From contig NZ_FUZU01000001.1 of NCBI RefSeq assembly GCF_900167975.1, positions 1,584,580-1,648,579 of the forward strand: 64,000 nt of DNA. Reading direction: 5' to 3'. How positions within the stretch are numbered: the stretch's first letter is position 1; each line of letters opens with the position of its first letter. Below the pieces are notes generated by a model. That model ran no database searches. It was not told the DNA's origin and saw only the letters and a program-made list of their open reading frames with translations. The stretch comes from Ohtaekwangia koreensis. GTDB lineage: Bacteria > Bacteroidota > Bacteroidia > Cytophagales > Cyclobacteriaceae. Position numbers and translations under genes: made by a program. Below, in pieces: positions 15,387 through 35,227 of the stretch.

Positions 15387-16550
15387 CTATTCGGCAAGTC
15401 TTATCCCTGTGAATTGCCATTGATGTGGTGCATGGAAAAAATTACGATATGTATTTCGGCTATGTCCGTCAGGCGTTGCTACGGAAGCACCACGTAGTAC
15501 CATCTGGTTAACCATAAACTTGCCGTTATATTCTCCAATAGCACCAGCCGCTTTTTTAAATCCGGGATACGGTAAGTAAGCACTGCCTGTCCATTCCCAG
15601 CGTTGACCCCAATCAAAATTCGGTGATGCAATTTCCCATTCCGCTTCTGTTGGCAATCGTTTCCCTTTCCACGAGGCGAATGCAGATGCTTCATAGAAAC
15701 TCACATGACATACAGGCTCATTCAAATCTATATGCTTGAGACCTTTAAATGTATAGTACATCCAAGCTCCGTCTATAAAATGCCAATATAATGGCGCATT
15801 AACCTTATTGGTCTTTACCCAGTCCCAACCCTCAGCATGCCAGTATCTGAAATCTCTATATCCTCCATCGTGGATAAAATCCAGGTACTCGCGATTACTT
15901 GCCAACGTTGAGGTAATGGTATAATCATCCAGGTAAACTTTGTGACACCCGCACTCATTGTCAAAACAGAAGCCATCACCTTTGAATCCAATCTCATAAA
16001 TACCAGCAGGTATAGGTATAACCTTTGGTGTCTCGTTGTTGGTAGCAGGTTTCGTAAATTCGTGATCTACACTATACGCAGGGAATAAGGGGTTATGACC
16101 CAGTATATACTTTATATCAGTATAGAGTAATTCCTGATGCTGTTGCTCGTGATGCAAACCGAGGATAATGGTACCGCGTAGTGGCTCATCAATAGAAGTA
16201 TTACTGAGAAAATGTTCCATCTGTTCGTCAATATATTTTCTATACCGAAAAACTTCGGAAACCGATGGGCGGCTCAGGTTGCCACGATCCGTGCGAATAA
16301 CACGCGCACCCACCGTTTCATAATAACTGTTAAATACAAAGTTATACTGATTATCAAACTCGCGGTAATCACTTGCGAATGGTTTAAGTATGAATGTCTC
16401 AAAGAACCATGTGGTATGGCCTAAATGCCATTTGGGCGGACTCACGTCAACAATGGGTTGAACGACATAATCTTCATTGCCAAGAGGAGAACATATGCGC
16501 TCGGATTGCAAGCGTATGCGTTTATATTGATGGAGTAAATCGTTATTCAT
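15387..16550 (-). CDS. egtB: Ergothioneine biosynthesis protein EgtB (sulfoxide synthase)
   Basis: The 387-residue protein has an N-terminal DinB-like bundle and a C-terminal formylglycine-generating-enzyme-like domain (about 170-387), the EgtB arrangement. The iron ligands are visible: H45 in HLGHTTWFFE and the H134-x3-H138-x-E140 motif (HHEQQHQE). The C-terminal domain ends with the conserved RNTYRNFF and FTGIRLAE motifs. EgtB joins trimethylhistidine (hercynine) to a cysteine-type thiol using oxygen and iron. The start is 39 bases after the egtD stop, so the two are co-transcribed. The thiol donor (cysteine or gamma-glutamylcysteine) cannot be told from sequence by eye. Confidence 0.92.
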   Translation of the reverse strand: MNNDLLHQYKRIRLQSERICSPLGNEDYVVQPIVDVSPPKWHLGHTTWFFETFILKPFASDYREFDNQYNFVFNSYYETVGARVIRTDRGNLSRPSVSEVFRYRKYIDEQMEHFLSNTSIDEPLRGTIILGLHHEQQHQELLYTDIKYILGHNPLFPAYSVDHEFTKPATNNETPKVIPIPAGIYEIGFKGDGFCFDNECGCHKVYLDDYTITSTLASNREYLDFIHDGGYRDFRYWHAEGWDWVKTNKVNAPLYWHFIDGAWMYYTFKGLKHIDLNEPVCHVSFYEASAFASWKGKRLPTEAEWEIASPNFDWGQRWEWTGSAYLPYPGFKKAAGAIGEYNGKFMVNQMVLRGASVATPDGHSRNTYRNFFHAPHQWQFTGIRLAE

Positions 16551-16589
16551 GAGTGACTCTCGGGATTCGAATTATATATATAGTATGGA

Positions 16590-17600
16590 TCATTGCGCTA
16601 TCCATACGCTATCGATAAACCAACGTTTTGGATCTGTGAAATTGGTAATCATACTAAAGCCGGAATGGCTTGCGAGTTTCTCAATCTCTTTGAGACTATA
16701 TTTTTGAGATACTTCCATATAGATCCATTCACCTTCGCTGAACGATATGGATGTGCCACTCACGATGACCGTTTGCTTTATATTGCTAACCAGGTAACTT
16801 TTACACGCACCGGTTTCAGGATCGTATGTTTGATAATGTGTAAACCGGTGAAGATCAAAGTTGCCTTCCAGTTCTGTATTGATTCGCTCCAGGAGGTTGA
16901 GATTGAAATCACGGGTGATTCCCCCTTTATCATTATAGGCGTCTAATATAGTGTGTGGGTTTTTCTTTAAGTCAAAACCCATCAATACTATATCGCCCGG
17001 CTGCAGCATGCTTCTTAGATCCTTACAAAAAAACTGCGCTTCTTTCGCAGACATATTGCCGATGTTTGCTCCCAGGAATAAAATAACCTTTCGATTGTCC
17101 GAAATCTTCGTTGCTTCTCGGAGCATATCGAAGTATTCACCTTCCAGGGAAACAAGGTTTAATCCTTGCAAATCTGAGAGACTTGTTTCGAGTTGAGAGA
17201 GTATATTTCCCGATATATCAACCGGTAGATATCTGAATTCTATTTTTCTGTCAAGCAATTCACGTATCAGGTATTTTGATTTTATACCATCGCCCACTCC
17301 AAGTTCGATCAGATCGAAAGATTGTGCCCTTGCATTTGTGATGGCAGCTATGAGACTAGATGTCTGATCACGAAATATTTCGAGCTCACAACGTGTCAGG
17401 TAATATTCCGGACAGTTCATGATCTGCTGAAATAGAGCATCGCCCTTTGTATCATAAAAATACTTTGAGCTCAAATGTTTAGGGTAAGATTGTAATCCTC
17501 CCAGGACATCTTCCCGGAAACACAGAACGCGATGTTCCTCTGTTTGTACTATATCTTGCTGAAGGCTGTATGCATGAGCGGATTGTTGTATGTCTATCAT
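16590..17600 (-). CDS. egtD: L-histidine N-alpha-methyltransferase EgtD
   Basis: The 336-residue protein has the EgtD signature. YFYDTKGDALFQQIMNCPEYY (about residues 47-67) is the substrate-side motif. LIELGVGDGIKSKYLI (about 97-112) is the SAM-binding glycine loop. VILFLGANIGNMS (about 173-185) follows. It trimethylates histidine to hercynine, the first ergothioneine step, upstream of EgtB. The gene starts 12 bases after the quinone-oxidoreductase-like gene, so it is probably part of a longer unit. No egtC, egtE or egtA is present in the window, so the later C-S lyase must come from elsewhere or be a general enzyme. Confidence 0.92.
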   Translation of the reverse strand: MIDIQQSAHAYSLQQDIVQTEEHRVLCFREDVLGGLQSYPKHLSSKYFYDTKGDALFQQIMNCPEYYLTRCELEIFRDQTSSLIAAITNARAQSFDLIELGVGDGIKSKYLIRELLDRKIEFRYLPVDISGNILSQLETSLSDLQGLNLVSLEGEYFDMLREATKISDNRKVILFLGANIGNMSAKEAQFFCKDLRSMLQPGDIVLMGFDLKKNPHTILDAYNDKGGITRDFNLNLLERINTELEGNFDLHRFTHYQTYDPETGACKSYLVSNIKQTVIVSGTSISFSEGEWIYMEVSQKYSLKEIEKLASHSGFSMITNFTDPKRWFIDSVWIAQ

Positions 17601-19795: not shown

Positions 19796-20992
19796 CTAGA
19801 ACCTTCTTGTGACTACGGTTTTATCGGGAGATTTAAATTTATCAATGACTACTTGCGTTGTACGATATGCTAATTTAAGAATTGATTGTGCACCCCATTG
19901 ATATTTGTACGTATTGAGAAGAAGTTTCCCTTTTTCTACAATGGAAACCTTCACTAGATTTAATAGCAGTAGTCGAAGCTTAAAAAGTTTATAACCGTTG
20001 CCAACATCGGGAGTGGTAAGCAAACTGAAATATTTAGCTTCTTTACTTTCGAGGGAATAATTCTGCAGCGCTGCCAAAACATGTTCTGGTATAACACAAA
20101 ACCCTTCTTGATTCAGATGTTCCAGTAAGACCTTCCCGGGAATTTGTAAATTATTTTCGTGCACTATATCTATAACTATCTTCCAGTCAAAGTTGGGTGT
20201 ATTTCGAATGATATACGTTGTGTCGGCAATGGCGCGAAGTACTGTGTCGCCTCCTATATCATAGCCATGAATAAGGGCACTGATCAATTGATGTTCCGGA
20301 CGCAACATTTTATGTCCTGGTTTATACGTCACGGCCCCATTCCAGAAACTGTTTACAGTATTTTCCGTCAGCGGAAAATCATGAAAACGGATGTGAAGAT
20401 CAATTTCAAATATATCTTTTACGAAGTGTGTTGCATGTACCAATGTATCTTGTACCGCTTCCGGTATATACATGGCGTCTTTGCTTGTCCATCCTTCTTT
20501 TGATAAAACCACCAGTGCTTTAGACCAATGATCAGGGTGGATCATGATGTCAAGATCCAATACAGACCGCGCCCCCAAATCTTTATAGTAAGCCTCAATC
20601 ATCGGGAAACCTTTAATGACCAGATGTGTTATGCCTTGTGCGTTGAGTATTTCGACAATGCTTTTAAGCTGCTCTTTAATTACCTGGTTTCTCACCCATA
20701 CGTACCGGTAGTATCCTTTTAGTGAATTGATCAACGGATGATTGACACCGGCTGAAGACATTTTCTTATATAGTAAAGCAAGCAGACGTTGTGATGAAAA
20801 GTCAAGTGGATCATATACTTGAGGAAGTATACCAGAAGATTTTTCGCTTGTCAGGTTGCTGAAACCATTTACCGACATCCATTTTTCCCAATGTTGAATC
20901 GCTTGATCGTTATCCAGAAGACAAGCTTTTAATAATAAAGTTTGATGCGCGTTGGGTAACGGATTGTAAAAATTCTGTGGTAAAGTATGCAT
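19796..20992 (-). CDS. NTP_transf_5-like nucleotidyltransferase family protein
   Basis: The 398-residue protein is the last gene of the PqqD-HprK operon. It has the motif HLVIKGFPMIEAYYKDLGAR followed by SVLDLDIMI near residues 127-155; the DLD pair fits the metal-binding aspartates of the uncharacterised nucleotidyltransferase family 5. The C-terminal half (about 230-398) is helical and unassigned. Proteins of this family are known beside HPr-kinase-like, PqqD-like and ABC genes in some lasso-peptide clusters, where their substrate is unclear. The start overlaps the ABC transporter stop by one base (TAATG). No membrane segment or signal peptide is visible. Confidence 0.8.
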   Translation of the reverse strand: MHTLPQNFYNPLPNAHQTLLLKACLLDNDQAIQHWEKWMSVNGFSNLTSEKSSGILPQVYDPLDFSSQRLLALLYKKMSSAGVNHPLINSLKGYYRYVWVRNQVIKEQLKSIVEILNAQGITHLVIKGFPMIEAYYKDLGARSVLDLDIMIHPDHWSKALVVLSKEGWTSKDAMYIPEAVQDTLVHATHFVKDIFEIDLHIRFHDFPLTENTVNSFWNGAVTYKPGHKMLRPEHQLISALIHGYDIGGDTVLRAIADTTYIIRNTPNFDWKIVIDIVHENNLQIPGKVLLEHLNQEGFCVIPEHVLAALQNYSLESKEAKYFSLLTTPDVGNGYKLFKLRLLLLNLVKVSIVEKGKLLLNTYKYQWGAQSILKLAYRTTQVVIDKFKSPDKTVVTRRF

Positions 20993-22626
20993 CAGGAGTA
21001 AGATGTTTTAAGTTCAATGATGTTATCAGCGAGCGATTGCAATTTTGCAGTGTGCGAGATGATAAGTATAGATGGAGTGTGTGCCTGGTTCTTTAGTGTA
21101 GTAGCAATAAGTTCTACTGAGTGCTGATCGAGGTGATTGGTCGGCTCATCCAATATGACGAGTGATGCCTTAGCGAGGAAACATCGGGCTATAGCGATCT
21201 TCTGTCGTTGTCCCCCTGAAAGTTTCGCACCCTTCTCACCAATCATGGTATAAAGGCCATCGGGAAGTGATTCAATAAATTCATGCAAACCTGAATTCAG
21301 CACAGCCTGTTGTACGGCGGTTATGTCAACCCCGGAAATGCCATATACTATATTATCAAGTATAGTACCTTGAAACGTGGTGTCCTCTTGCAATACCACG
21401 GCTATTTTACTTCGCAGGTATTGGATATCCCATGTTGAATAGGGAATACCACTCGCATAGAGGGCACCTTCTTGTGGTTGGTACAATCCGAGTATCAGAT
21501 TTACCAGCGTACTTTTTCCTGAACCATTTGGACCTACTACCAGCGTTGTTTCCCCGGGGCGCAACGAGAGATTATACTTTTTAAATAATACGAGTTCACC
21601 AAAGGAAAAAGTCAGATCCTTACATTCGATTCTTCCGTCAAACTCACCGCGCATTATACCGGTATATATCTCGTCACTTTCTTCTTTTAATATACTGGTA
21701 CATTGCTGCCATGAATCTGATCCTTCTAAAACAGCGGGGACTGCGTTGCCAATAGTGGTTAAGTATCTTTTTAATAAAAACAGGCAAAAGTAAAATGACA
21801 TCAGCGTGCCTATAGTCATTTCGCCTTTCATTACTGTATAGCTGCCCCATGCCAGCAATATGATACTGCTGATTGAAAAAATTACTTCTTGATAATTGGA
21901 CATCTTTATATAGCCGATGGCCATGTTCAGGCTGGAGTCTTCCAACTCGGTTATAATGTCTTTATGGAGATCAGCCTCTTTCTGCTGCGTTGATGAAACT
22001 TTGATGAGTTTGTTAAGCTCTAAAAGAAAAAGCGATTTTCGGTGGAAGTTCTCAAATGAAAGTTGAAACTGACGGAGGCTTTTTTTACAGGCGCGCCTTA
22101 GTAGCTCCGTAAGCAGTAGTATGAAAGGTGCCACTATAAATAGCAGAAGGCTCATCTGCACATTGAGGATTAGCAGTATAACTGCCAGGCAAAAGCTGAT
22201 GCATGCAGAAGGTATTATGACTGAAAATATAGCGTTGGCAAAATTATCAAGCTTCTCAGTATCATAAACCAGAACTTTGTGAATCCTGGACAGGTCTGCC
22301 TGTTGATAGGAGACATGTGACATGCGGAGTAATTTTGCTGTTAATGAATTACGAATACCGGAGATAGCGCGTTTCGTATGACGTATTATCGTTGCGCGGG
22401 TATATATCGAAAAGATACCACTGCAAGCCATCAATGCTATTAACGTTAAAGTCAGCTTTAGTAACAGACTAATGTCTGCGTTGGGGATAGCCTGATCAAA
22501 GATGATCTTTACCAAGAAACTTACGGGTATGAGAAGTGCTGATAAAAGAACGGAGAAAAAGACAACGATCCATATTCTTTGATGGAAGGAAGCGATCAGA
22601 AAGCGAATAGAACTTAAAATCTTCAT
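20992..22626 (-). CDS. ABC transporter, fused membrane and ATP-binding domains
   Basis: The 544-residue half-transporter has a six-helix membrane domain (about 15-320) and an ATPase domain (about 335-540). The ATPase motifs are complete: Walker A GPNGSGKST near 366, signature LSGGQRQ near 467, Walker B LVILDEP near 492, and the switch histidine in LIISHT. There is no N-terminal C39 peptidase domain, so it would not cleave a leader peptide. It is the export candidate for whatever this operon makes. The start overlaps the second glycosyltransferase gene by four bases. Confidence 0.93.
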   Translation of the reverse strand: MKILSSIRFLIASFHQRIWIVVFFSVLLSALLIPVSFLVKIIFDQAIPNADISLLLKLTLTLIALMACSGIFSIYTRATIIRHTKRAISGIRNSLTAKLLRMSHVSYQQADLSRIHKVLVYDTEKLDNFANAIFSVIIPSACISFCLAVILLILNVQMSLLLFIVAPFILLLTELLRRACKKSLRQFQLSFENFHRKSLFLLELNKLIKVSSTQQKEADLHKDIITELEDSSLNMAIGYIKMSNYQEVIFSISSIILLAWGSYTVMKGEMTIGTLMSFYFCLFLLKRYLTTIGNAVPAVLEGSDSWQQCTSILKEESDEIYTGIMRGEFDGRIECKDLTFSFGELVLFKKYNLSLRPGETTLVVGPNGSGKSTLVNLILGLYQPQEGALYASGIPYSTWDIQYLRSKIAVVLQEDTTFQGTILDNIVYGISGVDITAVQQAVLNSGLHEFIESLPDGLYTMIGEKGAKLSGGQRQKIAIARCFLAKASLVILDEPTNHLDQHSVELIATTLKNQAHTPSILIISHTAKLQSLADNIIELKTSYS

Positions 22627-23306
22627 TGTTCTTGTTGTCGTCTTCTATCCAAAGCGGCCTTTAATATACGTGGATAGTCCTTTTTTAAATCTTTGTGAAC
22701 GCGCGATGTATTCGATAGATGTATTCTTCTTTTGGCCACGACTTCCTGTACAACAAACTCATTCAGTTTTTTCTCTTTGGACCGTGCATACCAATCCGTG
22801 AACTCTTCTAATAGAAATCCGCCAGCAAATACACCTACGCCCATGAAGGCTTCACGCTTTATCAGCCATGCAGACTTGTGAATGCCGATCATCACCTCAG
22901 CGGTGTTTACTTCTATTTTGTTTTTCTCTTCCTCGGATAATTCAGGGCTGACAAATTGTTGCATTAACCCGAAAACCATATCAAGCGAAGGATTTTTTTC
23001 AAATGCCTGCAGCTGTACATATAGTCTTTGCGGCATCCATACATCGTCTGCATCAATAAACGCGAGATAGTCTCCGGACGATTGTTCAATGCCCGCATTT
23101 AAGGCTGCTGCCGTTCCCGAGTTAGCCTGATAAAAATAATGTACAGGAAAACCAGATACTATATCTTTTGTGCTATCAGTCGAGCCATCGTCTATTACAA
23201 TAATTTCATGTATAGGTATAGTTTGATCAATAACGCTTCGTAGAGCTTCACCAATGTACTTCCCTGCGTTGTATGCAGGAAGAATAACACTAATCTTTGC
23301 CTTCAT
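22623..23306 (-). CDS. GT2-family glycosyltransferase (second of pair)
   Basis: The 227-residue protein is a single GT-A domain. It opens SVILPAYNAGKYIGEALRSV, has IIVIDDGSTDST near residue 35 and the metal-binding LAFIDADDVW near residue 80. The donor sugar and acceptor are unknown. No membrane anchor is visible, unlike many exopolysaccharide GT2 enzymes. It overlaps the preceding glycosyltransferase by 17 bases and the ABC gene by 4, and shares the motif pattern of its neighbour, so the pair probably arose by duplication. Confidence 0.9.
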   Translation of the reverse strand: MKAKISVILPAYNAGKYIGEALRSVIDQTIPIHEIIVIDDGSTDSTKDIVSGFPVHYFYQANSGTAAALNAGIEQSSGDYLAFIDADDVWMPQRLYVQLQAFEKNPSLDMVFGLMQQFVSPELSEEEKNKIEVNTAEVMIGIHKSAWLIKREAFMGVGVFAGGFLLEEFTDWYARSKEKKLNEFVVQEVVAKRRIHLSNTSRVHKDLKKDYPRILKAALDRRRQQEQ

Positions 23307-24012
23307 GGGTGGTAATTGGATTCAATGGATCTCCCGGCTTTTGTCTTCTTCTGTCGAGTGATAACTTCAACGCACGTAACACACCGAGGTCTTTCAAAGT
23401 TTTATGCAAGGTCATATTTCCGGGATGAATGCGGTATAAAAGAACTGTCTCATTCAAAATAGTCATGGGAACGTTTGATTCCTTTATGCGAAGTATCCAA
23501 TCCTGGTCTTCTGAGAAATGAAGCTGTTCGTTAAAATACCCTACGGTATCAAATACTTTTTTGCGAACGATCAATCCTCCCAGCTGAACATTAAAAACAG
23601 GTGTGTCAATTTTTATTTGTTCTTTTCTATATTCCGAACCAGGCATATACACATATTCGATCAAGCCGCCAACAACGTCAACGTTTTGATTCTCTTCCAG
23701 GAAGGATAGCTGATGTTTTAGTTTAGTCAATGGCCAGTAATCATCAGCGTCTAAGAATGCGATCAGGTCGCCTCGTGCCTGAAGTATACCCGTGTTTCTT
23801 GCTTTTGAAGGGCCGCTATGCTGTTGATGAATATACCGTATATCAGGATTATGAAATGCATGTATGATCTCGCTGGTAGCATCTGTAGAACCATCATCCA
23901 CAATGATAATTTCCCACGCTATATCCGTTACATGTTGTGATACAATACTCTCTATAGCTTCCTGTATATAGGCAGCTCCGTTGTATACCGGCATGATTAC
24001 AGAGACCATCAT
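23290..24012 (-). CDS. GT2-family glycosyltransferase (first of pair)
   Basis: The 240-residue protein has the GT2 opening VSVIMPVYNGAAYIQEAIES, the nucleotide motif IIIVDDGSTDAT near residue 36 and the metal-binding LIAFLDADDYW near residue 83. It is cytoplasmic by sequence. It overlaps the HPr-kinase-like gene upstream by four bases and the second GT2 gene downstream by 17. Its acceptor could be a lipid, a sugar or a peptide; the operon context (PqqD-like plus HPr-kinase-like) makes a peptide or protein acceptor worth testing, but nothing in the sequence proves it. Confidence 0.9.
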   Translation of the reverse strand: MMVSVIMPVYNGAAYIQEAIESIVSQHVTDIAWEIIIVDDGSTDATSEIIHAFHNPDIRYIHQQHSGPSKARNTGILQARGDLIAFLDADDYWPLTKLKHQLSFLEENQNVDVVGGLIEYVYMPGSEYRKEQIKIDTPVFNVQLGGLIVRKKVFDTVGYFNEQLHFSEDQDWILRIKESNVPMTILNETVLLYRIHPGNMTLHKTLKDLGVLRALKLSLDRRRQKPGDPLNPITTHEGKD

Positions 24013-25043
24013 AGCACTTGTCTTTTTTGAATAAAAAACTCTGAGATGACCGCAGCTATTTCAGAGGCCTCTGTTCCAAGTTCAATTCTATAGGGCTTCA
24101 GTTTTTTAGTTAATGCAATGCATTTTTTAAACGTTTCTGTTTGCCCGGAAGGCAGTTGGAACATAGTCGTGGGAGCAATGCTTTTTAATACTTCAGCTTC
24201 CGTGCATTCCACAATGGTGGTCTTATTTGCTTTGCAGACTACAGGGACAAATGCATAGTCAAGCCTGCTTTTTTGCATCACTTTTTCTGTACACGTGTCG
24301 TGCATAAATATCATTGCTTTCTCTGCCTCTTTAATATTCCGATCTACCAATGGCTTTAAAAAATCGAGCCTCTCCAGATTATCCCATTCTACTTTAGCAC
24401 AATTATATAATGAATATAGCATGGATGTCTCGGTGTCAACAAGTACATAATCGTCACCGGCAATTTGCAGATCATCCCTTAACAGGCATGACAAGGTGGT
24501 GCTTGATTTGCCGGAGCCACTTTTACCGGAGAGAAGTGCTGAAGAATATTTTTGTGCTATACCGGCAGCGTGCAGTAGGAGGAGGGTTGTATCCCTTGAC
24601 CACCAATGTAAAATGGTACGAAACGGAAAACTTCGCTCCCAGTAGGGAATATCGTTGAAGTCTTTAACCCAATATATACCTTCTTTTGTATCATGGTCAT
24701 ACATCATCACAGCGCCTGATCCATGCTGGTAGGCCGTTTGAAAGCGAGGTGTATTAAAACCTTCAATAGCACCCTGGACACCATAATTTTGGCCCTGCCA
24801 TGGAAATGTAGTCAACAATGGACTGTCAAAGCAATATATAGTAATAGCCGCTGAATGCACGTTGTCAATCAGTATATGTGACAACGATGAAAGCATATAG
24901 GCTTTTATTTCAGGCCGGGAAAAATGGATCGTCAGGAAACTCTCTGCCAATCGAACATGAACCGCAGAGCGTTGCCGTGTAGATGAACTTGAATATAATG
25001 CCTTGAGAGTTTTAAAGAACTGTTCTGGATGCGAAGCGTTCAT
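24009..25043 (-). CDS. HPr kinase/phosphorylase-like (HprK-fold) protein
   Basis: The 344-residue protein has a P-loop ALLSGKSGSGKSSTTLSCLL near residue 165, followed by DLQIAGDDYVLVD near residue 190, the order seen in the C-terminal domain of HPr kinase. The N-terminal half (1-150) is not like the HprK sensor domain and is unassigned. In lasso-peptide clusters such proteins phosphorylate a serine at the precursor C-terminus. Here no precursor is identified, so the substrate is open. The gene overlaps the PqqD-like gene by four bases on one side and the first glycosyltransferase by four on the other. Confidence 0.82.
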   Translation of the reverse strand: MNASHPEQFFKTLKALYSSSSTRQRSAVHVRLAESFLTIHFSRPEIKAYMLSSLSHILIDNVHSAAITIYCFDSPLLTTFPWQGQNYGVQGAIEGFNTPRFQTAYQHGSGAVMMYDHDTKEGIYWVKDFNDIPYWERSFPFRTILHWWSRDTTLLLLHAAGIAQKYSSALLSGKSGSGKSSTTLSCLLRDDLQIAGDDYVLVDTETSMLYSLYNCAKVEWDNLERLDFLKPLVDRNIKEAEKAMIFMHDTCTEKVMQKSRLDYAFVPVVCKANKTTIVECTEAEVLKSIAPTTMFQLPSGQTETFKKCIALTKKLKPYRIELGTEASEIAAVISEFFIQKRQVL

Positions 25044-25420
25044 TCCGCTTTTTTATGAGGCCACCCCGTCTGATCAACTTCATGGATTGGATCCAATAGC
25101 AGAAGATCTTTCATGTCGTCATACTTTTTGTATTCAGGACGAACGAATTGCAGATCTATTGTTATTGGTTCCTTCACCGTTACATCCGATGTTGTAATCA
25201 GATTCTCTTGCACCAAAAAGGCTATAAATTGGTTGATGGACTCCGAGTCTTTAAACTGTTCAATAACTTCCTGATCGCTATAGCCGGCACCAATCAGCTG
25301 CCAGATTGCGATTGCAGATCCTTTAAAGCTATAGTATGCTCCACTAGCCAAATTCACGATAACGGCTTCGTCATTGAAAATCTCACTCACTACTTTATTT
25401 GTATCGATGGTATAGGTCAT
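25040..25420 (-). CDS. PqqD-like peptide-recognition protein with conserved-looking tail
   Basis: I start at ATG 25420 (126 residues), because MTYTIDTNKVVSEIFNDEAV begins the PqqD fold at once; the longer frame to 25552 uses a TTG start and adds basic, unstructured residues. Residues 1-80 are the three-strand, three-helix PqqD fold, with VIVNLASGAYYSFKGSAIAIW as the core. In RiPP pathways this fold binds the leader peptide. Residues about 95-126 form an extra acidic-hydrophobic tail, DDMKDLLLLDPIHEVDQTGW then PHKKAE. It is the first gene of the operon. No cyclase or transglutaminase-like protease is nearby, so a standard lasso pathway is not shown. Confidence 0.8.
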   Translation of the reverse strand: MTYTIDTNKVVSEIFNDEAVIVNLASGAYYSFKGSAIAIWQLIGAGYSDQEVIEQFKDSESINQFIAFLVQENLITTSDVTVKEPITIDLQFVRPEYKKYDDMKDLLLLDPIHEVDQTGWPHKKAE

Positions 25421-25620
25421 AATCCTTAAAGATAAGGGCGCGAAATTATATACACAAGGCAAAATTTTTCGTGATATTTTACGAGGTGATCCAACCTTCT
25501 TTAGCACGCTGCGCAGTATTGGAAATAGGTTTGAAGTAAGAGGAGAAAGCAAAGTGATTGCCTTCGTGTTAATGCCACATCCGGTTTATAATAGTCTGCT
25601 TACGAAACTATATCTCAAAA

Positions 25621-25719: not shown

Positions 25720-27195
25720 TTACTGCACAACAACCTGCCACTGCTGATTATTCCCGCCATTCCATGGCCATTGAATAATTGTTGCGCCATTTGCAGTGGA
25801 ACCCTGATTTACATCCAGTGCACTGCCACTATTTCTGTTGATAATCCGGTAGTAGCCTCCTCCGTTGTCAATGATTTGCCATTGCTGATTATTGCCACCG
25901 TTCCAAGGCCATTGAATGATCGGTGCGCCATTTGTTGTTGAACCTTGGTTCACATCCAGTGCATCGCCACTGTTACGATTTGTGATCCTGTGATAGCCAT
26001 CACCTATATCTACAATACGCCACTGCTGGTTGTTACCACCACTCCATGTCCATTGTATTACACTTGCACCATCGGTAGTAGCAGCACCGTTCACATCAAG
26101 TACTCTGCTGCTGTTCCGGTTCGTGATGCGATAGTAACTATTAGGTTCAAAGCCACCATATCCCCAACCATAACGGATCCGGGTAACGCCTGAGTTATTG
26201 GTTGTCGTGAGCGTAATGTTATTGCCACTTCCTCCGCGTTGTTGAATGCTATAGCTGTCACCATCCCGCAAGCCAGGCCAGTATACACTTGCAATCTGAC
26301 TGTTTCTGAATTTGTTGGTAGACCCTTGGATATAGGCGATTTCATTGTCGCCATTGGCGACACCAGTATAATTTTTCCCAGTAGTCATCGCTGCACCATA
26401 CTCGGTTACAACGGTACGGCTGGCGTAATTGCCAATGCGATTTTGCCAGTCTTGTTCCCACTGTGCAGCAGTAGCATGTGTAGTCCAGAAAGCATAGTTA
26501 TGCAACGCGAGCAGACAATTACTGAAACGGCTATCAGCACCTACAGCAGTAACATTTTCAGAATAGCCGGTTCCTCCCAGAAGAATTCTTCCGTGTGGTA
26601 CAGAAGGATAACGCGAAAGCCACTCAGCATAGATCGTGGTTAACTCAGACAAACTATATCCATGTGGTTCATTGAATACTTCGAAGTATACATTTGCATT
26701 ATTGCCATATTTATTTACGATGGTTTGCCACATACTCCAAAATTGCGTGGTGTTATCAATACGCCCATCACGCGAAGAAGCGCTTTCCCAGCAGGCGAGA
26801 ATCACCTTCATGTTTTTACTGAGTGCTGCATCCATGGCACCGGTATAAGCGCTCCACCAGGATTCCAGTACGCTGTTCGGATTAACTGGTAGGCGTACCG
26901 TGTTAACACCCGCCATGTTTGTTTGAAAGGCTGTGAGAATAGAATTCGCTTTAGCCTGAACTGTAGAATAATTATCAGAGGACGTCAGTCCGGATGGAAT
27001 TACCCAGCCGTCAACAAAGTTATCCCGGCCATCGGCCCAGTTTACACCAGCAATGCTACCGGCACCAAGACGTTTGTCCTGGTTATTGACAACCTCGGGA
27101 GCCACCGCCCTGGTGGTCGTAATTTCTTCTTCCTGGCTGCATCCGCAGACCATCGCCAACGATATGGCTACTGCATAACTTACATGTTTGATCAT
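25720..27195 (-). CDS. GH5-family glycosidase lipoprotein with ricin-type trefoil
   Basis: The 491-residue protein starts with a lipoprotein signal peptide ending at C19 (AMVCGCS). The GH5 barrel spans about 45-340, with acid/base E176 in FEVFNEP and nucleophile E265 in VVTEYGA. Residues about 355-491 are a ricin-type beta-trefoil of three repeats, each with the GGNNQQW pattern and a SALDVN or RVLDVN motif, likely a carbohydrate-binding CBM13-like module. The substrate is a beta-linked polysaccharide not identifiable by eye. It is divergent from the first hybrid sensor and probably belongs to the same utilisation locus. It ends in a clear intrinsic terminator. Confidence 0.88.
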   Translation of the reverse strand: MIKHVSYAVAISLAMVCGCSQEEEITTTRAVAPEVVNNQDKRLGAGSIAGVNWADGRDNFVDGWVIPSGLTSSDNYSTVQAKANSILTAFQTNMAGVNTVRLPVNPNSVLESWWSAYTGAMDAALSKNMKVILACWESASSRDGRIDNTTQFWSMWQTIVNKYGNNANVYFEVFNEPHGYSLSELTTIYAEWLSRYPSVPHGRILLGGTGYSENVTAVGADSRFSNCLLALHNYAFWTTHATAAQWEQDWQNRIGNYASRTVVTEYGAAMTTGKNYTGVANGDNEIAYIQGSTNKFRNSQIASVYWPGLRDGDSYSIQQRGGSGNNITLTTTNNSGVTRIRYGWGYGGFEPNSYYRITNRNSSRVLDVNGAATTDGASVIQWTWSGGNNQQWRIVDIGDGYHRITNRNSGDALDVNQGSTTNGAPIIQWPWNGGNNQQWQIIDNGGGYYRIINRNSGSALDVNQGSTANGATIIQWPWNGGNNQQWQVVVQ

Positions 27196-27599
27196 AAATT
27201 AAAGGTTTTGGTTGTTTGACTTAATTACTCATACAACCTACCCATTGAAATTCATCTTAAACGGGGATATATGCGGAATTAGTAGGGGTTAAATCGTTTG
27301 CATAAAAATTATTGCTCAGATATCAACGGACAAGGCTGTAGACACTTAAGTAATTCAGAATTCCATGCTACACGGAACGCTTTCTTGTAAATATTCCGGA
27401 CCGAAAACGATTTAATCTTCAATTGCCCCCTACGGTTTACACAAATCCCCCCATGTAAAGCATGTCGCGTTACGGTTATTTGAGCTCTTGTCGTGTGTTA
27501 AAACTTCTTTCTGTTAAAAGACTCACATTTTTGTTGTAACAGACTGGATTGAGAAGGTTAAACAACATTGATTTGAGATTACGTTAACTTCAGGGGACA
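27196..27599. promoter_or_regulatory. Divergent intergenic region, GH5 and first hybrid sensor
   Basis: These 404 bases must hold the promoters for both the GH5 gene and the hybrid sensor gene. No open frame is visible. I did not find a clear -33/-7 pair or a direct repeat that would mark the binding site of the sensor's AraC domain. Confidence 0.45.
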
Positions 27600-30500
27600 A
27601 TGGATCCGGATTCCAAGAAACTACAACTTCCACGCATTTTTTTACAATCCCTGATAGGGCTCACGTTGTTATTTGCTACCACGGCCGTTGCGCAGCAGGA
27701 ACCTAAAAGCCGTATCAAACGATACAGTATTAAAGACGGACTCTCCCAAGGTGTTGTCAATAGTATAACACAAGACGATCAAGGGCTAATGTGGTTTGCC
27801 ACCGAAGATGGATTGAATCGTTTTGATGGTTATTCATTTAAAGTTTTTAAGTACGATCCGGATAATAGTAGAGGACTTGCTGATAATTTTATTCAGAGTG
27901 TATTCAAAGATTCCGAAGGATCGTTTTGGGTTTCATCCCGAAAGGGTCTGCATCAGTTCGATCAGCTAAAGGAACAATTTCCACTATACAAACATTCTTT
28001 TCCTGCAGGAAGTAATGACCCTAATAATGATGTGAGCTTCATTGCGGAAGGAAGCGCCAAAAACCTATGGATCGCTTGGTATGGTGCGGGCTTCGCTTCC
28101 TTTAATAAGGAGACAAAAATATTTACACCCTATACTGATCGTACACTTCGTGAGTTGAGCAGCACACAAACCCTTACGTTACATGAAGACAAATTTGGAT
28201 TGCTTTGGGTTGGCACACAAAACAGAGGTATAGATGTTTTTAAGGTAAGCAAAGGGACCATTGTTAAGAAGCACGAAAATCTTTCGGATAAAAAACTTCT
28301 CCCATCACTCAATATTCGTTGCTTTGCCGAAGACCTGGCTGGTAACCTATGGATCGGTACAGCCAACGGTCTGGTACTATATAAACGGCAAGAGAATCGG
28401 TTCTACACCTTCAACGCAAAACGTTTCGGTATAGCCGGTAAGAGTATATTTACATTGCTTGCCGACAGTCATGAAAACCTGTGGATCGGTGTACAGGGAG
28501 GAGGACTATATTCCCTCGATCTTCGCCAGCTGAACAGTCACTCTCTTGATGATGTAATTTTTAATCACATCGAAACTCTGGACGACTATAACATTTCCAA
28601 ACGAACTATACTTTCCTTATATGAAGATAAGGATAAGAACCTCTGGATCGGAACTTTTGGTGATGGTATATATATGATCAGCAGTGTTAAAGAGAAATTC
28701 TTTAAGATTCAAACCAAACAATATACAAACGCATCGTTAAGCTTTGTACAGTATTACGGCATGTGTTATGATCAGGATGGTAACTTATGGCTTGGCACAG
28801 ATGGCGATGGTATATATAAATCGCGTGTAACAGGCGAAGTTGTAAAACACTATAAAGCCGATAATAAAAAAGGAAGCCTCACGGACAATGCTATACTCAG
28901 CGCCCTTCGTGATCATGACGATAATTTATGGTTTGGTACATATTCGCAGGGGATTTTCAAATATGATACACACAGCGATACGTTTATCAATTACCGTTAT
29001 TCCGGAGATCAGTCTTTAGCAGGAGGTAATGATGTACGTGTCATTTTTGAAGATTCGAAGCATAACCTGTGGGTGGGTACCAATCGCGGTGGATTATGTT
29101 TGCTGGACGAAGCCAGTCACACATACAAGAGTATACCAGGAGCACAAGGTATATTACGAGATGGTGACATTCGTGCAATTGCCGAAGATAAATCGGGAAG
29201 TCTGTGGATTGGTTGCTATGGTGACGGCCTTCATTATTTTGATCCGGCTTCAAAAAAATCAGAACGGTACTTCCATACGTCAGAGAAAGATGAACAGCTC
29301 AAGAGCAACGTTGTCTTTGCTTTGAGCATTGATCGAAAAGGTAAAGTATGGATTGGTACAGGAGGAGGAGGGCTGGTATATTATGATCCTGTCGCAAAGA
29401 GTATAAAGCGATACAGCGATAAAGATGGCCTTGCTAATAATACGATCTACGCCATCTTAATAGACAACTCTGATAATTTGTGGGTCAGTACCAACAAGGG
29501 TATCTCCAAGTATGAATCTGTTAAAGGACAATTTTATAACTACGATGTGAATGATGGTTTGCAGGATGGTCAATATAATCCGGGCTCAGCCTTGTATAAT
29601 GATATAGCAGGGTATATGTGCTTTGGCGGAACAACGGCACTGAATGTTTTTTACCCCGATCAGGTCATCGAACATTTAAAGAAACCGAAAGTAATGATCT
29701 CCGGGTTTCAACTCTTTAATAAACCGGTTGAAGTAAACAGCAAGAATGAAAATGATTTTGAATTAAATCAGGTCATAAGCCAAACAAAAAAAATTACACT
29801 GACACATCGGCAATCTGTGTTCACTTTTGATTTCGTTGGATTAAACTATAGCTATCCTGAAAAAAATAAATATGCCTATAAACTGGATGGACTCGATCGT
29901 GATTGGAACTATGTAGGGAACCAGCGTTCTGCTACATATCGTTACCTGGAGCCGGGTAAGTATACATTTAAAGTAAAGGCTTCGAATGAAGATAACATCT
30001 GGAGTGATGAATATGCAAGTATAGCCATTACAATCCTGCCACCATTTTGGCGGACACCTTTCGCATATTTTTTATATGTGCTGGTGGTCGGTGGATTATG
30101 TTTGGCCGTAGTAGCTGTGAGGCGGAAGCAAGCGACATTACGCAAGCGTCTGAAAATTGAGAAAGCACAACGTAAGCGTGAGCGCCAATTGGTACAGGAG
30201 AAACTTAGTTTCTTCACGGAGATCTCGCATGAATTCCGTACACCTCTTACGTTAATGATTGGACCATTGGAGGAAATGGTTTCCCGCGAAGGCAGTTATA
30301 CGCCAACGGGCCGGAAATTAAAAATGGTAAATCGCAATGCGCATAAATTGCTAAGTCTGATCAATAAGCTGCTGGATTATCGCAAGATAGAAAGCGGAAA
30401 CATTGTGTTAAAGGTTAAGGAAGATGATATCGTGACCTTTGTAGAGGAGATCTATATCACGTTTAAAGAGCTTGCCATTCGTAAAAATATAGTATTCAAT

Positions 30501-31790
30501 TTCCATCCTGAAGAAGCATCACTATTGGTATGGTTTGATAAGGAAAAATTGGAGATGGTGTTGAATAATATAATTTCTAATTCTTTTAAATATATAGGGA
30601 AGGGAAACGAGATCACGATTTCAATTCACAAACAGGTCTCTGAAAAATCGCCGCAAGGCAAAGTCTCCATTAAGATTAAAGACAACGGTATAGGTATACC
30701 CAGGAAACAACTTGGGAGTATATTTGACTGGTTTTATAAAGGAGATAGCTCCGGCCCGATGAGTTCGGGCATTGGCCTTGCGCTCGCAAAGAAACTGGTG
30801 CACCTGCACAAGGGTGATATCTTTGTTGAAAGCACAGAAGGAAGTGGTTCAACGTTCAGTATTAAAATTCCATTGGGGAAGGATCACTTTAAACCCAATG
30901 AGATTATCATTGATACGAGTGAAGATACGTTCCTGTTGAATGGGAGCGGAGCAAGAGGTGCTCATATTGCTGACCTAGTAACGGAAGATGGAGAGGATGA
31001 TACTACAGGAAGAAAAGGACAACGCAGTTTGTTGATTGTGGAGGATGATGAAGACATCCGGATGTTCCTGAAAGAATATTTTGAGAAGAATTATAGAGTA
31101 CTTGAAGCAAATCATGGTAAGGAAGGATTAGCGCTTACAGCCGAGCATCATGTTGATCTAATTATTAGCGATATCATGATGCCTGAAATGAATGGTATAG
31201 ATTTTTGCAAGGAGTTGAAAAGTAATATTCGTACCAGCCATATACCCATCATTTTACTAACCGCAAAGACATCACTCACACATCATAAAGAAGGAATTGA
31301 AATTGGTGCTGACGCATACATCACGAAACCGTTTAGCCCCGAGATGCTCGCGCTAACCATGAACAACCTGTTACAGTCGCGCGAAAATCTGAAACGTTTT
31401 TACCGGAACTTGTTCAGTGCCAACACAACGATAACGGCCCCGGAATCTCATTCGCCAGATGAAAAATTCCTCCATTCCATTTACGATATTTTTAAAGCTA
31501 ACCTCGACCACCCCGACTTTAATGTAAATGAGCTTTGCGAATCGCTCAACATGAGCCGCTCTTTATTATATAAGAAAGTCAAAATGCTTACAGGGCTTTC
31601 ACCGGTTGAATACCTAAGGTCGTTGCGGATGCAGGAAGCTGCGCAGTTATTGAAGTCCAAAAAGTATAAAGTCTTTGAGGTTGTCTACATGGTTGGGTTC
31701 TCGGATTTGAAATATTTCCGCCAGTGTTTTGTGAAAGAATTCGGTTATGCACCCTCGGAATTGCTAAAAAACAACGACAAGACTGATTGA
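27600..31790 (+). CDS. Hybrid two-component sensor/AraC regulator (HTCS) of locus 1
   Basis: This 1396-residue one-protein two-component system has a signal peptide (about 12-32). A periplasmic double beta-propeller of repeated LWIGT-GL blades spans about 40-720. A Y_Y_Y domain (about 737-819) and a membrane helix (about 820-840) follow. The kinase domain has H877 in EISHEFRTPLTL and an ATPase domain (about 980-1095). The receiver carries phospho-acceptor D1191 (IISDIMMPEMNG). A C-terminal AraC helix-turn-helix covers about 1290-1396. Such proteins sense an oligosaccharide in the periplasm and activate the adjacent sus genes. The start at ATG 27600 leads into the signal peptide. It is followed by susC and susD of locus 1. 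Confidence 0.95.
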   Translation: MDPDSKKLQLPRIFLQSLIGLTLLFATTAVAQQEPKSRIKRYSIKDGLSQGVVNSITQDDQGLMWFATEDGLNRFDGYSFKVFKYDPDNSRGLADNFIQSVFKDSEGSFWVSSRKGLHQFDQLKEQFPLYKHSFPAGSNDPNNDVSFIAEGSAKNLWIAWYGAGFASFNKETKIFTPYTDRTLRELSSTQTLTLHEDKFGLLWVGTQNRGIDVFKVSKGTIVKKHENLSDKKLLPSLNIRCFAEDLAGNLWIGTANGLVLYKRQENRFYTFNAKRFGIAGKSIFTLLADSHENLWIGVQGGGLYSLDLRQLNSHSLDDVIFNHIETLDDYNISKRTILSLYEDKDKNLWIGTFGDGIYMISSVKEKFFKIQTKQYTNASLSFVQYYGMCYDQDGNLWLGTDGDGIYKSRVTGEVVKHYKADNKKGSLTDNAILSALRDHDDNLWFGTYSQGIFKYDTHSDTFINYRYSGDQSLAGGNDVRVIFEDSKHNLWVGTNRGGLCLLDEASHTYKSIPGAQGILRDGDIRAIAEDKSGSLWIGCYGDGLHYFDPASKKSERYFHTSEKDEQLKSNVVFALSIDRKGKVWIGTGGGGLVYYDPVAKSIKRYSDKDGLANNTIYAILIDNSDNLWVSTNKGISKYESVKGQFYNYDVNDGLQDGQYNPGSALYNDIAGYMCFGGTTALNVFYPDQVIEHLKKPKVMISGFQLFNKPVEVNSKNENDFELNQVISQTKKITLTHRQSVFTFDFVGLNYSYPEKNKYAYKLDGLDRDWNYVGNQRSATYRYLEPGKYTFKVKASNEDNIWSDEYASIAITILPPFWRTPFAYFLYVLVVGGLCLAVVAVRRKQATLRKRLKIEKAQRKRERQLVQEKLSFFTEISHEFRTPLTLMIGPLEEMVSREGSYTPTGRKLKMVNRNAHKLLSLINKLLDYRKIESGNIVLKVKEDDIVTFVEEIYITFKELAIRKNIVFNFHPEEASLLVWFDKEKLEMVLNNIISNSFKYIGKGNEITISIHKQVSEKSPQGKVSIKIKDNGIGIPRKQLGSIFDWFYKGDSSGPMSSGIGLALAKKLVHLHKGDIFVESTEGSGSTFSIKIPLGKDHFKPNEIIIDTSEDTFLLNGSGARGAHIADLVTEDGEDDTTGRKGQRSLLIVEDDEDIRMFLKEYFEKNYRVLEANHGKEGLALTAEHHVDLIISDIMMPEMNGIDFCKELKSNIRTSHIPIILLTAKTSLTHHKEGIEIGADAYITKPFSPEMLALTMNNLLQSRENLKRFYRNLFSANTTITAPESHSPDEKFLHSIYDIFKANLDHPDFNVNELCESLNMSRSLLYKKVKMLTGLSPVEYLRSLRMQEAAQLLKSKKYKVFEVVYMVGFSDLKYFRQCFVKEFGYAPSELLKNNDKTD

Positions 31791-32101
31791 CATCTACCCC
31801 CCTCATCGCGAACAATTCGTGGAGGGTGAATATTCCCGTGTTTTATTCTTCGAAATGGCTCCGAAAACGATGTTTTAACTCAGAAAAGCCATCCACCCCT
31901 CACGAAGTATAAGTTTCCCCCTCATTCTAACAATCGATTTCGACCACCTTTATGCAAAGGTTTGCACCACTTCGGTGCGCCAGTACCACTAGTATTCGAC
32001 CCTAAACTTAAATGGCATGAAAGCGATTCTCAATTCAGGTTAAGCGTCCCCGTCAATCCTCCGCCTTCGCGGCAAATTCAAGTCCTAACAAAACCGAAAT
32101 T
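31791..32101. promoter_or_regulatory. Region upstream of the first susC
   Basis: The 311 bases between the sensor gene and susC contain no gene. An imperfect bulged hairpin at 31800-31826 may end the sensor transcript. A GCAAA-GG-TTTGC dyad sits near 31955. The susC promoter and the binding site of the upstream AraC domain are expected here but not identified. Confidence 0.4.
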
Positions 32102-35100
32102 ATGATCATTAAACATTTACCAAGAAAAATTACGGCTCCGTTCATCGTCATGATGATAATGCTCGGATGCCTGCACGCTTCGATTCCACTGTTTGCCCAG
32201 TCAGACATTACTGTAAAGGGCAAGATCACATCACAGGATGATGCCTCCGCTTTGCCGGGTGTCAACGTGATTGTAAAAGGAACTTCCATTGGCACCACAA
32301 CGGATGCTAATGGTGAATTCTCAATTAAGGCTCCTGATCAGAATTCAATCCTCGTGTTCTCATTTATAGGGTATACATCGCAGGAAGCTGTAGTCGGAAC
32401 GCAAACGAACATAGACGTAGCATTGGTTTCTGATATCGCTACACTCTCTGAAATAGTTGTGGTAGGATACGGTGAGCAGAAAAAAGAAACGCTTACGGGT
32501 TCTGTATCGCAGATAAAAGGAGAAGATATAGTAAAGAGTCCTCAGACGAACGTATCCAACTCACTGGCCGGACGCTTCTCCGGTGTTATAGCCAGCAACC
32601 GTGGTGGCGAGCCTGGGTATGATGGCAGTAGCTATAACATTCGTGGTTTAGCAACAACTGGTAACAACGATGTACTTGTCGTAATTGATGGTATACCTGG
32701 ACAGTTGGGAGGTCTCGAACGTTTAAACCCCAATGACATTGAAAGTGTATCTATACTGAAAGATGCTTCGGCTGCAGTATACGGAAGTCGTGCTGCAAAC
32801 GGTGTTATCCTTGTTACAACGAAGCGTGGTAAAAGTGGTAAGCCCACAGTAAACTATAGCTTTAACCAAGGCTTTTCTTCACCAACACGTTTGCCTGATA
32901 TGGCAGATGCCGCTACGTATGCTACTATACAAAACGAGATTGACTACTATAATAACAAAGCGGGTGGTATGAATCAGCATTATTCAGAAGCAGAGATTCA
33001 GAGATTCCGTGATGGTTCAGATCCGATCAATTATCCCAATACAAACTGGGCGGATGAAACGCTGAAGAAAGTAGCATTGCAGAATCAGCACAATCTATCC
33101 ATCAATGGTGGATCTTCGGATGTAAAGTATTTTGTGTCGCTTGGTAAAATATACCAGGACGGGCTCTATAAGAACGGAGCTACAAAATACAATCAGTATA
33201 GCTTCCGCTCGAACATCGATGCGAATGTTACTAAAGATTTTAAAATTACACTTTCGCTTGCTGGTCGTCAGGAAGATCGTAAGTATCCGATAAGTGGTGC
33301 TGGAGATATTTTCCGCTCGATATACCGCGCCTATCCAACAGTTGCTGCACGCTATCCGAATGGTTTTCCATCGAGAGGTGTTGAGGGTAATAACCCTGTA
33401 TTGATGGCAACTGATATTGGTGGTACAAACGTCAATCCAACCAATGTATTCAACGGGATTTTAAGAGCTAGCTATGCTATACCAAAAATTCAGGGACTCT
33501 CGGTTGACGGATTTTATGCTGTTGATAAAACCTGGAATTTCTCAAAAGCCTTCAGTAAGCCATACGCAGTGTATAGTTATAATAGTGCAGACGATAGCTA
33601 TACCCGTAGTATCTCCGGAGGATCATCAGGTACAGCGAAGCTTACGGAATCGCAGGAGAATAATACAATGATTACCCAGAACATAAAACTGAATTACGAA
33701 AAGCAGTTTGGTGATCATTATATCAATTCATTTGTGGCTTATGAACAAAGCCAAACGCATCGTGAAACATTCAATGCAACACGGTTAAGATTCCCAACCA
33801 TAGAAACGCCTGAACTTTCACAAGGAGGATCAGCAGCCGCTGATCGTGATAATACAGGTTCAAGCTATAATTATACCCGCAGAAGTTATATAGGCCGAAT
33901 TGCCTACAACTATAAAGAAAAATATCTTGCAGAAGTGCAAATGCGTGTTGATGGATCATCAACGTTCCCAAGTGGTAATCGCTATGGATACTTTCCTGCA
34001 GTATCTGCAGGATGGAGAATCTCAGAAGAAGATTGGTTCGCGAACAGTGTTTCATTTATCAATGATTTAAAGATCAGAGCATCTTATGGTCAATTGGGTA
34101 ATGATAATGTAAATCAATTCCAGTACTTTAATAATTACTCCTTTAATAATACATATGTTTTAGGAACCGATAAGCATCCTGGTATAGATCTCACAAAATT
34201 AGCCAATAAGAATATCACGTGGGAAGTGTCCAAAAAAACTGATATAGGTTTAAATGCTACCGTACTGCGGAATTTTACGCTTGAATTTATATACTTCATG
34301 CAGGATCGTTCTGATATATTAGCTGTCCGCAATGCATCTATTCCGGGCATATCTGGAATTGTTAATCCATACAATGACAACAGCGCCAATTACAATCCAC
34401 TCGTGCCTTCTGAAAATATAGGTAAAGTTAAGAGCCGTGGTATTGAAACAACAGTGGGCTATAAGCATCAGGGTGATTTCTGGTATGCGCTTTCAGCCAA
34501 CATGACGTATGCAAAAAGCGAGATTGTGTTTATTGATGAAGCGCCTTCTGTCCTTGATTACCAACGTCAGACAGGACGTCCATTGAATAGTTACCTGCTC
34601 TATAACGCTATAGGTATATTTCGCACAGCAGGTGATCTTGACAGTCATCCACATTTAGCGAACGCACAGCTCGGAGATCTGATCTATGACGATTATAATA
34701 ACGATGGAAAAATCACGGCCGATGATCAGGTAAGGACCAAATACGGTAACATCCCTCAATTAACCTATGGCCTTAACGTTAGTGCAGGCTGGAAAAACTT
34801 TGATATATCTATACTCTTTGCCGGACAAGCCCGCGTGAGTCAATATGTATTGGCGGAATCTGGAACGGTTGGAAACTTTTATAGCACATGGGCAGATAAT
34901 CGTTGGAGCCCTTCAAATGTAAATGGTAGCTATCCGCGCGTAGATACACGTGCTTCAGCATCCATCAATGGTGGTTCTAATAAAAATAATTTCTGGCTGA
35001 ACGATGCATCATTCATGCGTCTTAAGAATATAGCGATTGGCTATAATGTGCCAAGTGCGCTGATTTCTAAATTAAGTCTGACAGGTGTGCGGGTATATGC

Positions 35101-35224
35101 AAACGCATTCAACCTGTTTACCATCACCAAGGTAAAAGACTATGATCCTGAAGGAAGCAGTGAAAGTGGACAATTCTATCCACAGCAGCGCATTATCAAC
35201 TTGGGTGTAAACATTCAGTTTTAA
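32102..35224 (+). CDS. SusC/RagA-type TonB-dependent outer-membrane transporter, locus 1
   Basis: The 1040-residue protein starts with a signal peptide (about 1-32). A carboxypeptidase-regulatory-like domain follows (about 36-112; LPGVNVIVKGTSIGTTTDANG). The TonB-box-like motif EIVVVGYGEQKKETLTGS precedes the plug domain (about 130-240; VVIDGIPG and ILKDASAAVYGSRAANGVILVTT). The rest is the beta-barrel, ending in LGVNIQF with a terminal aromatic residue. It imports oligosaccharides with its SusD partner, which starts three bases after the susC stop. Size and order match the family. Confidence 0.95.
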   Translation: MIIKHLPRKITAPFIVMMIMLGCLHASIPLFAQSDITVKGKITSQDDASALPGVNVIVKGTSIGTTTDANGEFSIKAPDQNSILVFSFIGYTSQEAVVGTQTNIDVALVSDIATLSEIVVVGYGEQKKETLTGSVSQIKGEDIVKSPQTNVSNSLAGRFSGVIASNRGGEPGYDGSSYNIRGLATTGNNDVLVVIDGIPGQLGGLERLNPNDIESVSILKDASAAVYGSRAANGVILVTTKRGKSGKPTVNYSFNQGFSSPTRLPDMADAATYATIQNEIDYYNNKAGGMNQHYSEAEIQRFRDGSDPINYPNTNWADETLKKVALQNQHNLSINGGSSDVKYFVSLGKIYQDGLYKNGATKYNQYSFRSNIDANVTKDFKITLSLAGRQEDRKYPISGAGDIFRSIYRAYPTVAARYPNGFPSRGVEGNNPVLMATDIGGTNVNPTNVFNGILRASYAIPKIQGLSVDGFYAVDKTWNFSKAFSKPYAVYSYNSADDSYTRSISGGSSGTAKLTESQENNTMITQNIKLNYEKQFGDHYINSFVAYEQSQTHRETFNATRLRFPTIETPELSQGGSAAADRDNTGSSYNYTRRSYIGRIAYNYKEKYLAEVQMRVDGSSTFPSGNRYGYFPAVSAGWRISEEDWFANSVSFINDLKIRASYGQLGNDNVNQFQYFNNYSFNNTYVLGTDKHPGIDLTKLANKNITWEVSKKTDIGLNATVLRNFTLEFIYFMQDRSDILAVRNASIPGISGIVNPYNDNSANYNPLVPSENIGKVKSRGIETTVGYKHQGDFWYALSANMTYAKSEIVFIDEAPSVLDYQRQTGRPLNSYLLYNAIGIFRTAGDLDSHPHLANAQLGDLIYDDYNNDGKITADDQVRTKYGNIPQLTYGLNVSAGWKNFDISILFAGQARVSQYVLAESGTVGNFYSTWADNRWSPSNVNGSYPRVDTRASASINGGSNKNNFWLNDASFMRLKNIAIGYNVPSALISKLSLTGVRVYANAFNLFTITKVKDYDPEGSSESGQFYPQQRIINLGVNIQF

Positions 35225-35227
35225 AAA

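Follow-up and report, generated by a model that had tools for sequence, protein, structure and literature searches.

Within a window of 64,000 nucleotides from the Ohtaekwangia koreensis genome (contig NZ_FUZU01000001.1), the term denoting here the whole stretch that was analysed, six open reading frames lie on the minus strand between positions 19796 and 25420, with consecutive overlaps of 4, 4, 17, 4 and 1 bases (Table 1). An earlier note made from the sequence had described an overlapping six-gene operon at this place, and strand, coordinates and overlaps were all re-found. Pfam searches returned strong GT2 matches for both glycosyltransferases, NTP_transf_5 at 105.7 bits for the nucleotidyltransferase-like protein (NTP5 below), a weak Hpr_kinase_C match of 14.5 bits for the kinase, and PqqD at 22.5 bits against a cut-off of 23.4 for the PqqD-like protein, which was rated as over in the search that took in its neighbours. 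The ABC exporter has no peptidase domain among its reported Pfam and NCBIfam matches. Because the stretch immediately upstream of the operon is kept in four congeners while the sequence farther up diverges in two of them (L010 and L011), it is probable that the operon is transcribed from a promoter of its own; a string resembling the 16S end upstream of the RRE gene was set aside as it is not kept in relatives.

Table 1. Features of the six-gene operon, in window coordinates
Feature	Position	Strand	Basis
RRE (PqqD-like) protein with C-terminal tail, 126 aa	25040..25420	-	ORF, AlphaFold2, Foldseek, profile matches
RRE domain, residues 1-76	25193..25420	-	strands and three helices in AlphaFold2 model; Pfam PqqD 18-57
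Leader-like motif FVRPEYKKY, residues 92-100	25121..25147	-	predicted strand 96-100; motif rule in excerpts of PMC13381572 and PMC12710340
Near-invariant block DDMKDLLLLDPIHEVDQTGWP, residues 101-121	25058..25120	-	D-P-[I/V]-H and GW in 23/23 loci
HprK-like kinase, 344 aa	24009..25043	-	Pfam, 13-sequence profile; H158, K179, D197, D198
GT2 glycosyltransferase a, 240 aa, FLDADD motif	23290..24012	-	Pfam, motif reading
GT2 glycosyltransferase b, 227 aa, FIDADD motif	22623..23306	-	Pfam, motif reading
ABC exporter (membrane part and ATPase), 544 aa	20992..22626	-	Pfam; NCBIfam best relative MsbA
NTP_transf_5 nucleotidyltransferase-like protein, 398 aa, RSVLDLDI motif	19796..20992	-	Pfam, alignment
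Conserved upstream stretch, putative promoter/ribosome-binding region	25421..25464	-	comparison with four congeners

Beside the operon, positions 25720-36916 code for a GH5 cellulase with ricin-type lectin domains, followed by a hybrid two-component regulator and a TonB-plug/SusD pair, and thus form a carbohydrate-utilisation neighbourhood. At 15387-17600, again on the minus strand, an FGE-sulfatase/DinB_2 protein adjoins a Methyltransf_33 protein, a pair which we take to be of the ergothioneine type (EgtB/EgtD-like). The possibility of a defence system was set aside, the sole PADLOC match being weak (mad8, 18.1 bits).

Judged by profile comparison and predicted fold, the PqqD-like protein is an RRE whose nearest solved relatives are the RREs of lasso peptides and of the linear polyphosphorylated peptide (LPP) clusters of Popov et al. 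2026 (PMC13381572; this and the two other papers cited here are drawn on in excerpt). The best matches of its profile are TbiB1 (3.1e-14), PbaB1 (2.4e-12) and LppB (7e-5), with TfuB1 also among them. AlphaFold2 predicted an RRE fold for the 126-residue protein with a best mean pLDDT of 82.9, from a shallow alignment of four close sequences and with five models ranging from 82.9 to 47.4; Foldseek searches with the RRE model gave complexes of TbiB1 with its leader (5v1v) as best matches. The leader motifs bound by RREs have been given as YxxP and W/Y/LxxP/L/I (PMC12710340) and as [Y/W]xxPx[L/V/I/F/A] (PMC13381572). For the kinase, the HPr-kinase label is firm because a profile of 13 sequences has HPr kinase 1jb1 as its best PDB match (E 2.4e-8), aligned over H...GKS...DD. 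By alignment, H158, K179, D197 and D198 appear to supply the His, P-loop Lys and Asp-Asp of HprK-like peptide kinases, a His-Lys-Asp-Asp motif carried by lasso kinases (PMC9266682), and all are kept in 13/13 sequences save D197 (12/13); the fold prediction for this protein failed, with a pLDDT of 31.9.

The most distinctive feature of the RRE protein is its C-terminal tail (residues 92-126), present on an RRE frame at 23/23 loci with a consensus of roughly [F/Y]xxPx(hydrophobic)xK[Y/F]xDMxDLLLLDPIHxVxxxGWP. Mean pairwise identity is 0.65 in the tail versus 0.33 in the RRE and 0.14 in the linker (9 of 13 sequences, 36 pairs), DP[I/V]H is kept at all 23 loci, and the preceding 18 residues align without gaps. 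Among the four congeners, residues 95-126 show zero nonsynonymous against at most 17 synonymous changes, and the RRE part differs by up to 13 residues. A leader-like motif, [Y/F]xxPx(hydrophobic), is separated from DPIH by a constant number of residues, without gaps. It is present in strict form in 14/23 tails and in relaxed form in 18/23, the five tails lacking even the latter being L013, L030, L076, L077 and L078; in 13 of the RRE proteins, none of the 1316 remaining positions matches the strict form. Its commonest first residue is phenylalanine, which is absent from the motifs given in the excerpts of PMC12710340 and PMC13381572. For the tail, AlphaFold2 predicts a strand (residues 96-100, pLDDT about 84) that starts directly after P95, and then a helix (residues 103-109); in the LppB-LppA crystal the strand of LppA likewise begins directly after P-13 (PMC13381572). 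A contact between tail and RRE may be surmised from this strand, as predicted from the four-sequence alignment. The block holds no Ser, Thr, Tyr or Cys conserved across the 23 loci; the position before DM (Ser/Thr in 14/23, Asp in 8, Asn in 1) was considered as a phosphosite and is read instead as a helix N-cap.

The earlier note had advised looking for a small conserved gene close by: a conserved element does exist, in the form of this tail and not of a separate gene. Among 472 ORFs from 14 loci no separate small ORF is conserved between distant loci, for which reason a separate precursor gene was set aside, as were stand-alone tail peptides, since the strong tail matches are all on RRE frames. 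The weak tail matches, seven at E 0.02-0.07 and one in the O. koreensis genome itself at E 3, lie for the most part inside large unrelated frames or lack the motif; that at L038 (PLLRDPVHPVEATGWRF, on a 173-aa frame without an RRE) is probably due to chance. Viral contigs gave 162 matches to the tail pattern, none of which was confirmed. In the literature searched, which consisted largely of papers outside subscription journals, we found no description of the tail or of an RRE-precursor fusion.

The cassette was recovered, with shuffled gene order, at 23 loci, 22 of them in 19 Bacteroidota genomes, where the earlier note had proposed to seek the same gene order, and one on a cyanobacterial plasmid. 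The HprK-like kinase is present in 8/295 genomes of the family, that of O. koreensis included, and in 4/7 genomes of the genus. As the remaining five gene types are found near the kinase at all eight of its loci in the family, the gene association is above chance; the tail, too, is in the same locus as the kinase in 8/8 kinase-positive genomes of the family. The tail profile matched 6/395 genomes phylum-wide, 8/92 (five strong, the rest weak) and 5/114 (one strong, the rest weak) in two other groups, and 5/395 class-wide, where seven of the eight matches are new loci outside the training alignments. PqqD-domain proteins are common (89/267 genomes) as against the rare tail. Among 72,556 plasmid records, tblastn found one full-length relative, on a plasmid of Crinalium epipsammum, where the tail gene adjoins genes annotated as a nucleotidyltransferase, an HPr kinase, glycosyltransferases, an FkbM methyltransferase, a second nucleotidyltransferase and an ABC transporter. 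Among 395 genomes, six have the tail, seven a strong kinase match and six both; a Fisher test on these counts is in part circular, since tail loci went into the kinase profile. The seventh kinase, without a tail (G410), is located at a contig end. Three of five weak kinase matches were examined, and all three are without a tail.

A kinase lies beside the tail at 23/23 loci (that of L041 being a mere fragment where the contig ends), GT2 at 22/23, NTP5 at 21/23, one of these without its DxD, and an ABC protein with a membrane part at 11/23; the transporter is absent from the other 12 fetched loci, three of which (L041, L073 and L077) are cut by contig ends. In the window the catalytic motifs are intact. 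The DxD motif of NTP5 is present in 13/15 aligned sequences, and L027 and L040 have lost it from a first copy and kept it in a second. Kinase-GT2 fusions also occur, with one GT2 joined to the kinase in the genus of L026, L028, L029, L042 and L058 and two joined to it in L015 and L075. Glycosyltransferase number varies between loci, as do extras such as sulfotransferase-like, O-FucT-like, FkbM and fatty-acid hydroxylase proteins. Three genomes (G833, G905 and G957) each carry two cassettes of two subtypes (L072-L074 and L076-L078), and L076-L078 have lost the leader motif and encode a shorter kinase of 301-317 aa. At the four loci checked from one genus (L026, L028, L029 and L042) a tRNA-Ala(ggc) gene lies beside the cassette; genomic islands often adjoin tRNA genes.

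The operon is a genuine and conserved cassette of LPP-like type whose architecture is new. In our best reading, its six genes would phosphorylate, glycosylate and export a peptide; the earlier note had placed such a system beside lipid or polysaccharide tailoring, and of these the peptide system now fits best, though the end product may be either a peptide or a glycan. More specifically, we give about an even chance to an LPP-like phospho/glyco-peptide cassette in which a leader-like, precursor-like peptide is fused to the RRE as one polypeptide. We infer that the [F/Y]xxPx(hydrophobic) stretch of the tail would dock on its own RRE, or on that of a neighbouring molecule, as a leader would, and thereby present the DPIHxV...GWP block; the HprK-like kinase, NTP5 and the GT2 enzymes might then act on the block or be recruited by it, building a phosphate/sugar decoration, and the MsbA-like ABC protein, where present, could export the product. 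Counting against a fused precursor are a tail without a conserved Ser/Thr to accept phosphate, an operon without a leader peptidase, the five tails that lack even the relaxed leader motif, the predicted nature of the strand on which the RRE-tail contact is based, the incomplete presence of ABC, NTP5 and GT2 at the 23 loci, and the hardly varying sequence of the tail, which looks equally like a docking peptide or a product. On a bolder version of this idea, which we consider rather doubtful, the RRE protein would be its own substrate, its DPIHxV...GWP block receiving phosphate and a strain-variable oligosaccharide in cis, and the glycoprotein or the tail would be the product. This would amount to a RiPP made as a single chain, whose peptide handle stays constant while its glycan varies and whose modified residues would be Asp, His, Trp or Lys and not Ser/Thr.

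The same tail might instead be a docking or recruiting arm, and we regard as a real, if lesser, possibility that an RRE-tail adaptor holds the kinase, NTP5 and GT2 enzymes for an acceptor that is a glycan, a lipid or an unlinked peptide. Such an arm could well do without a conserved hydroxyl or thiol acceptor and stay near-invariant across phyla while glycosyltransferase number and extras vary, and the end of the LPP leader is described as not touching the RRE and as possibly serving enzymes (PMC13381572). A rightly placed leader-like motif followed by a conserved block is, however, the layout of a precursor, and a second bound peptide would need to displace the cis tail. It seems unlikely that the operon is a tailoring cassette for a cell-surface glycan of the EPS/LPS type which the RRE-tail protein only regulates. 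The two GT2 genes and the MsbA-like exporter would suit that role, as would L029 with as many as five GT2 ORFs apart from its kinase fusion, the EPS-type cluster (Wzy_C, Bac_transf) adjoining L075, and the location of LPP clusters in capsule loci (PMC13381572); yet the kinase and NTP5 point to peptide tailoring, and no other polysaccharide assembly gene was found among the scanned flanking genes of the window locus. A consistent tie to exopolysaccharide clusters, which the earlier note had named as contrary evidence, was not seen among the selected flanking genes scanned, L075 alone showing one.

The RRE is closest to those of lasso peptides, which would fit a lasso cluster that degenerated after losing its cyclase and protease; but all six genes are intact, the same cyclase-free set recurs at distant loci, and PF13471, the family of the lasso leader protease, is without a match in the O. 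koreensis genome, making this origin very improbable. PF00733 (Asn_synthase) is present in 14/14 genomes tested, with none of its listed matches inside a cassette. A lasso cluster in disguise is rejected on these two grounds, and the earlier description of the operon as the accessory set of lasso clusters without cyclase or protease holds; nor, among the selected flanking genes scanned, does either enzyme consistently lie beside it. If the fused peptide is as we propose, the kinase/NTP-transferase/MsbA type of peptide pathway would extend beyond Bacillota and include a one-chain design with a leader-like peptide on its own RRE. Other pathways without a findable precursor gene may likewise hide one in the RRE protein, and the 23-locus motif offers a direct search handle.

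Among known systems, the paeninodin and pseudomycoidin lasso clusters share with this operon an RRE, an HprK-like kinase with His-Lys-Asp-Asp and a nucleotidyltransferase linked to hexose addition, PsmK phosphorylating pseudomycoidin and PsmN being required for its hexose (PMC9266682); the operon differs in having no cyclase, B2 protease or separate precursor. To the HPr-rel-A system (NCBIfam TIGR04352/TIGR04353) the likeness is slight, the kinase matching TIGR04352 at 30.5 bits, far below the cut-off of 200, and no TIGR04353 match being listed for the window RRE protein. A possible precedent for fusion comes from genome G507, which has 12 PqqD matches, including tandem PqqD-domain proteins (L079 2758-9504 and L080 1192-5264) with a Tat-like segment and variable Cys/Ser/Asp-rich C-termini. 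These adjoin a YcaO/SagD-type protein, a SagB-type dehydrogenase and HprK-like proteins, and are apparently RREs fused to precursors of a thiazole/oxazole-type RiPP.

The LPP clusters (PMC13381572) resemble the operon in bringing together a discrete RRE, an HprK-like kinase, an NTP transferase and an MsbA-like transporter, and in their glycosyltransferase-rich surroundings, YxxP-type leader and core without a macrolactam cyclase. There the RRE holds the precursor, LppK phosphorylates Ser3 and LppS cleaves; LppK and PadeK both phosphorylate a Ser (PMC13381572, PMC9266682), whereas the tail has no conserved Ser. The precursor LppA is separate, in contrast to the precursor-like tail fused to the RRE, and of its leader YxxPxVLxHQxIxFETxxS the tail shares only the [F/Y]xxPx part. 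The SpI-like leader peptidase LppS is encoded in the cluster, and no such peptidase was found in the window operon or its scanned neighbours. LppN had no visible effect in a heterologous host according to the excerpted text. The compact six-gene system with intact GT2 partners makes the role of NTP5 testable. Finally, here the GT2 genes lie inside the operon, with kinase-GT2 fusions at some loci, and the hosts are Bacteroidota and one cyanobacterial plasmid, unlike the LPP clusters, which are described in that source as restricted to Bacillota (PMC13381572).
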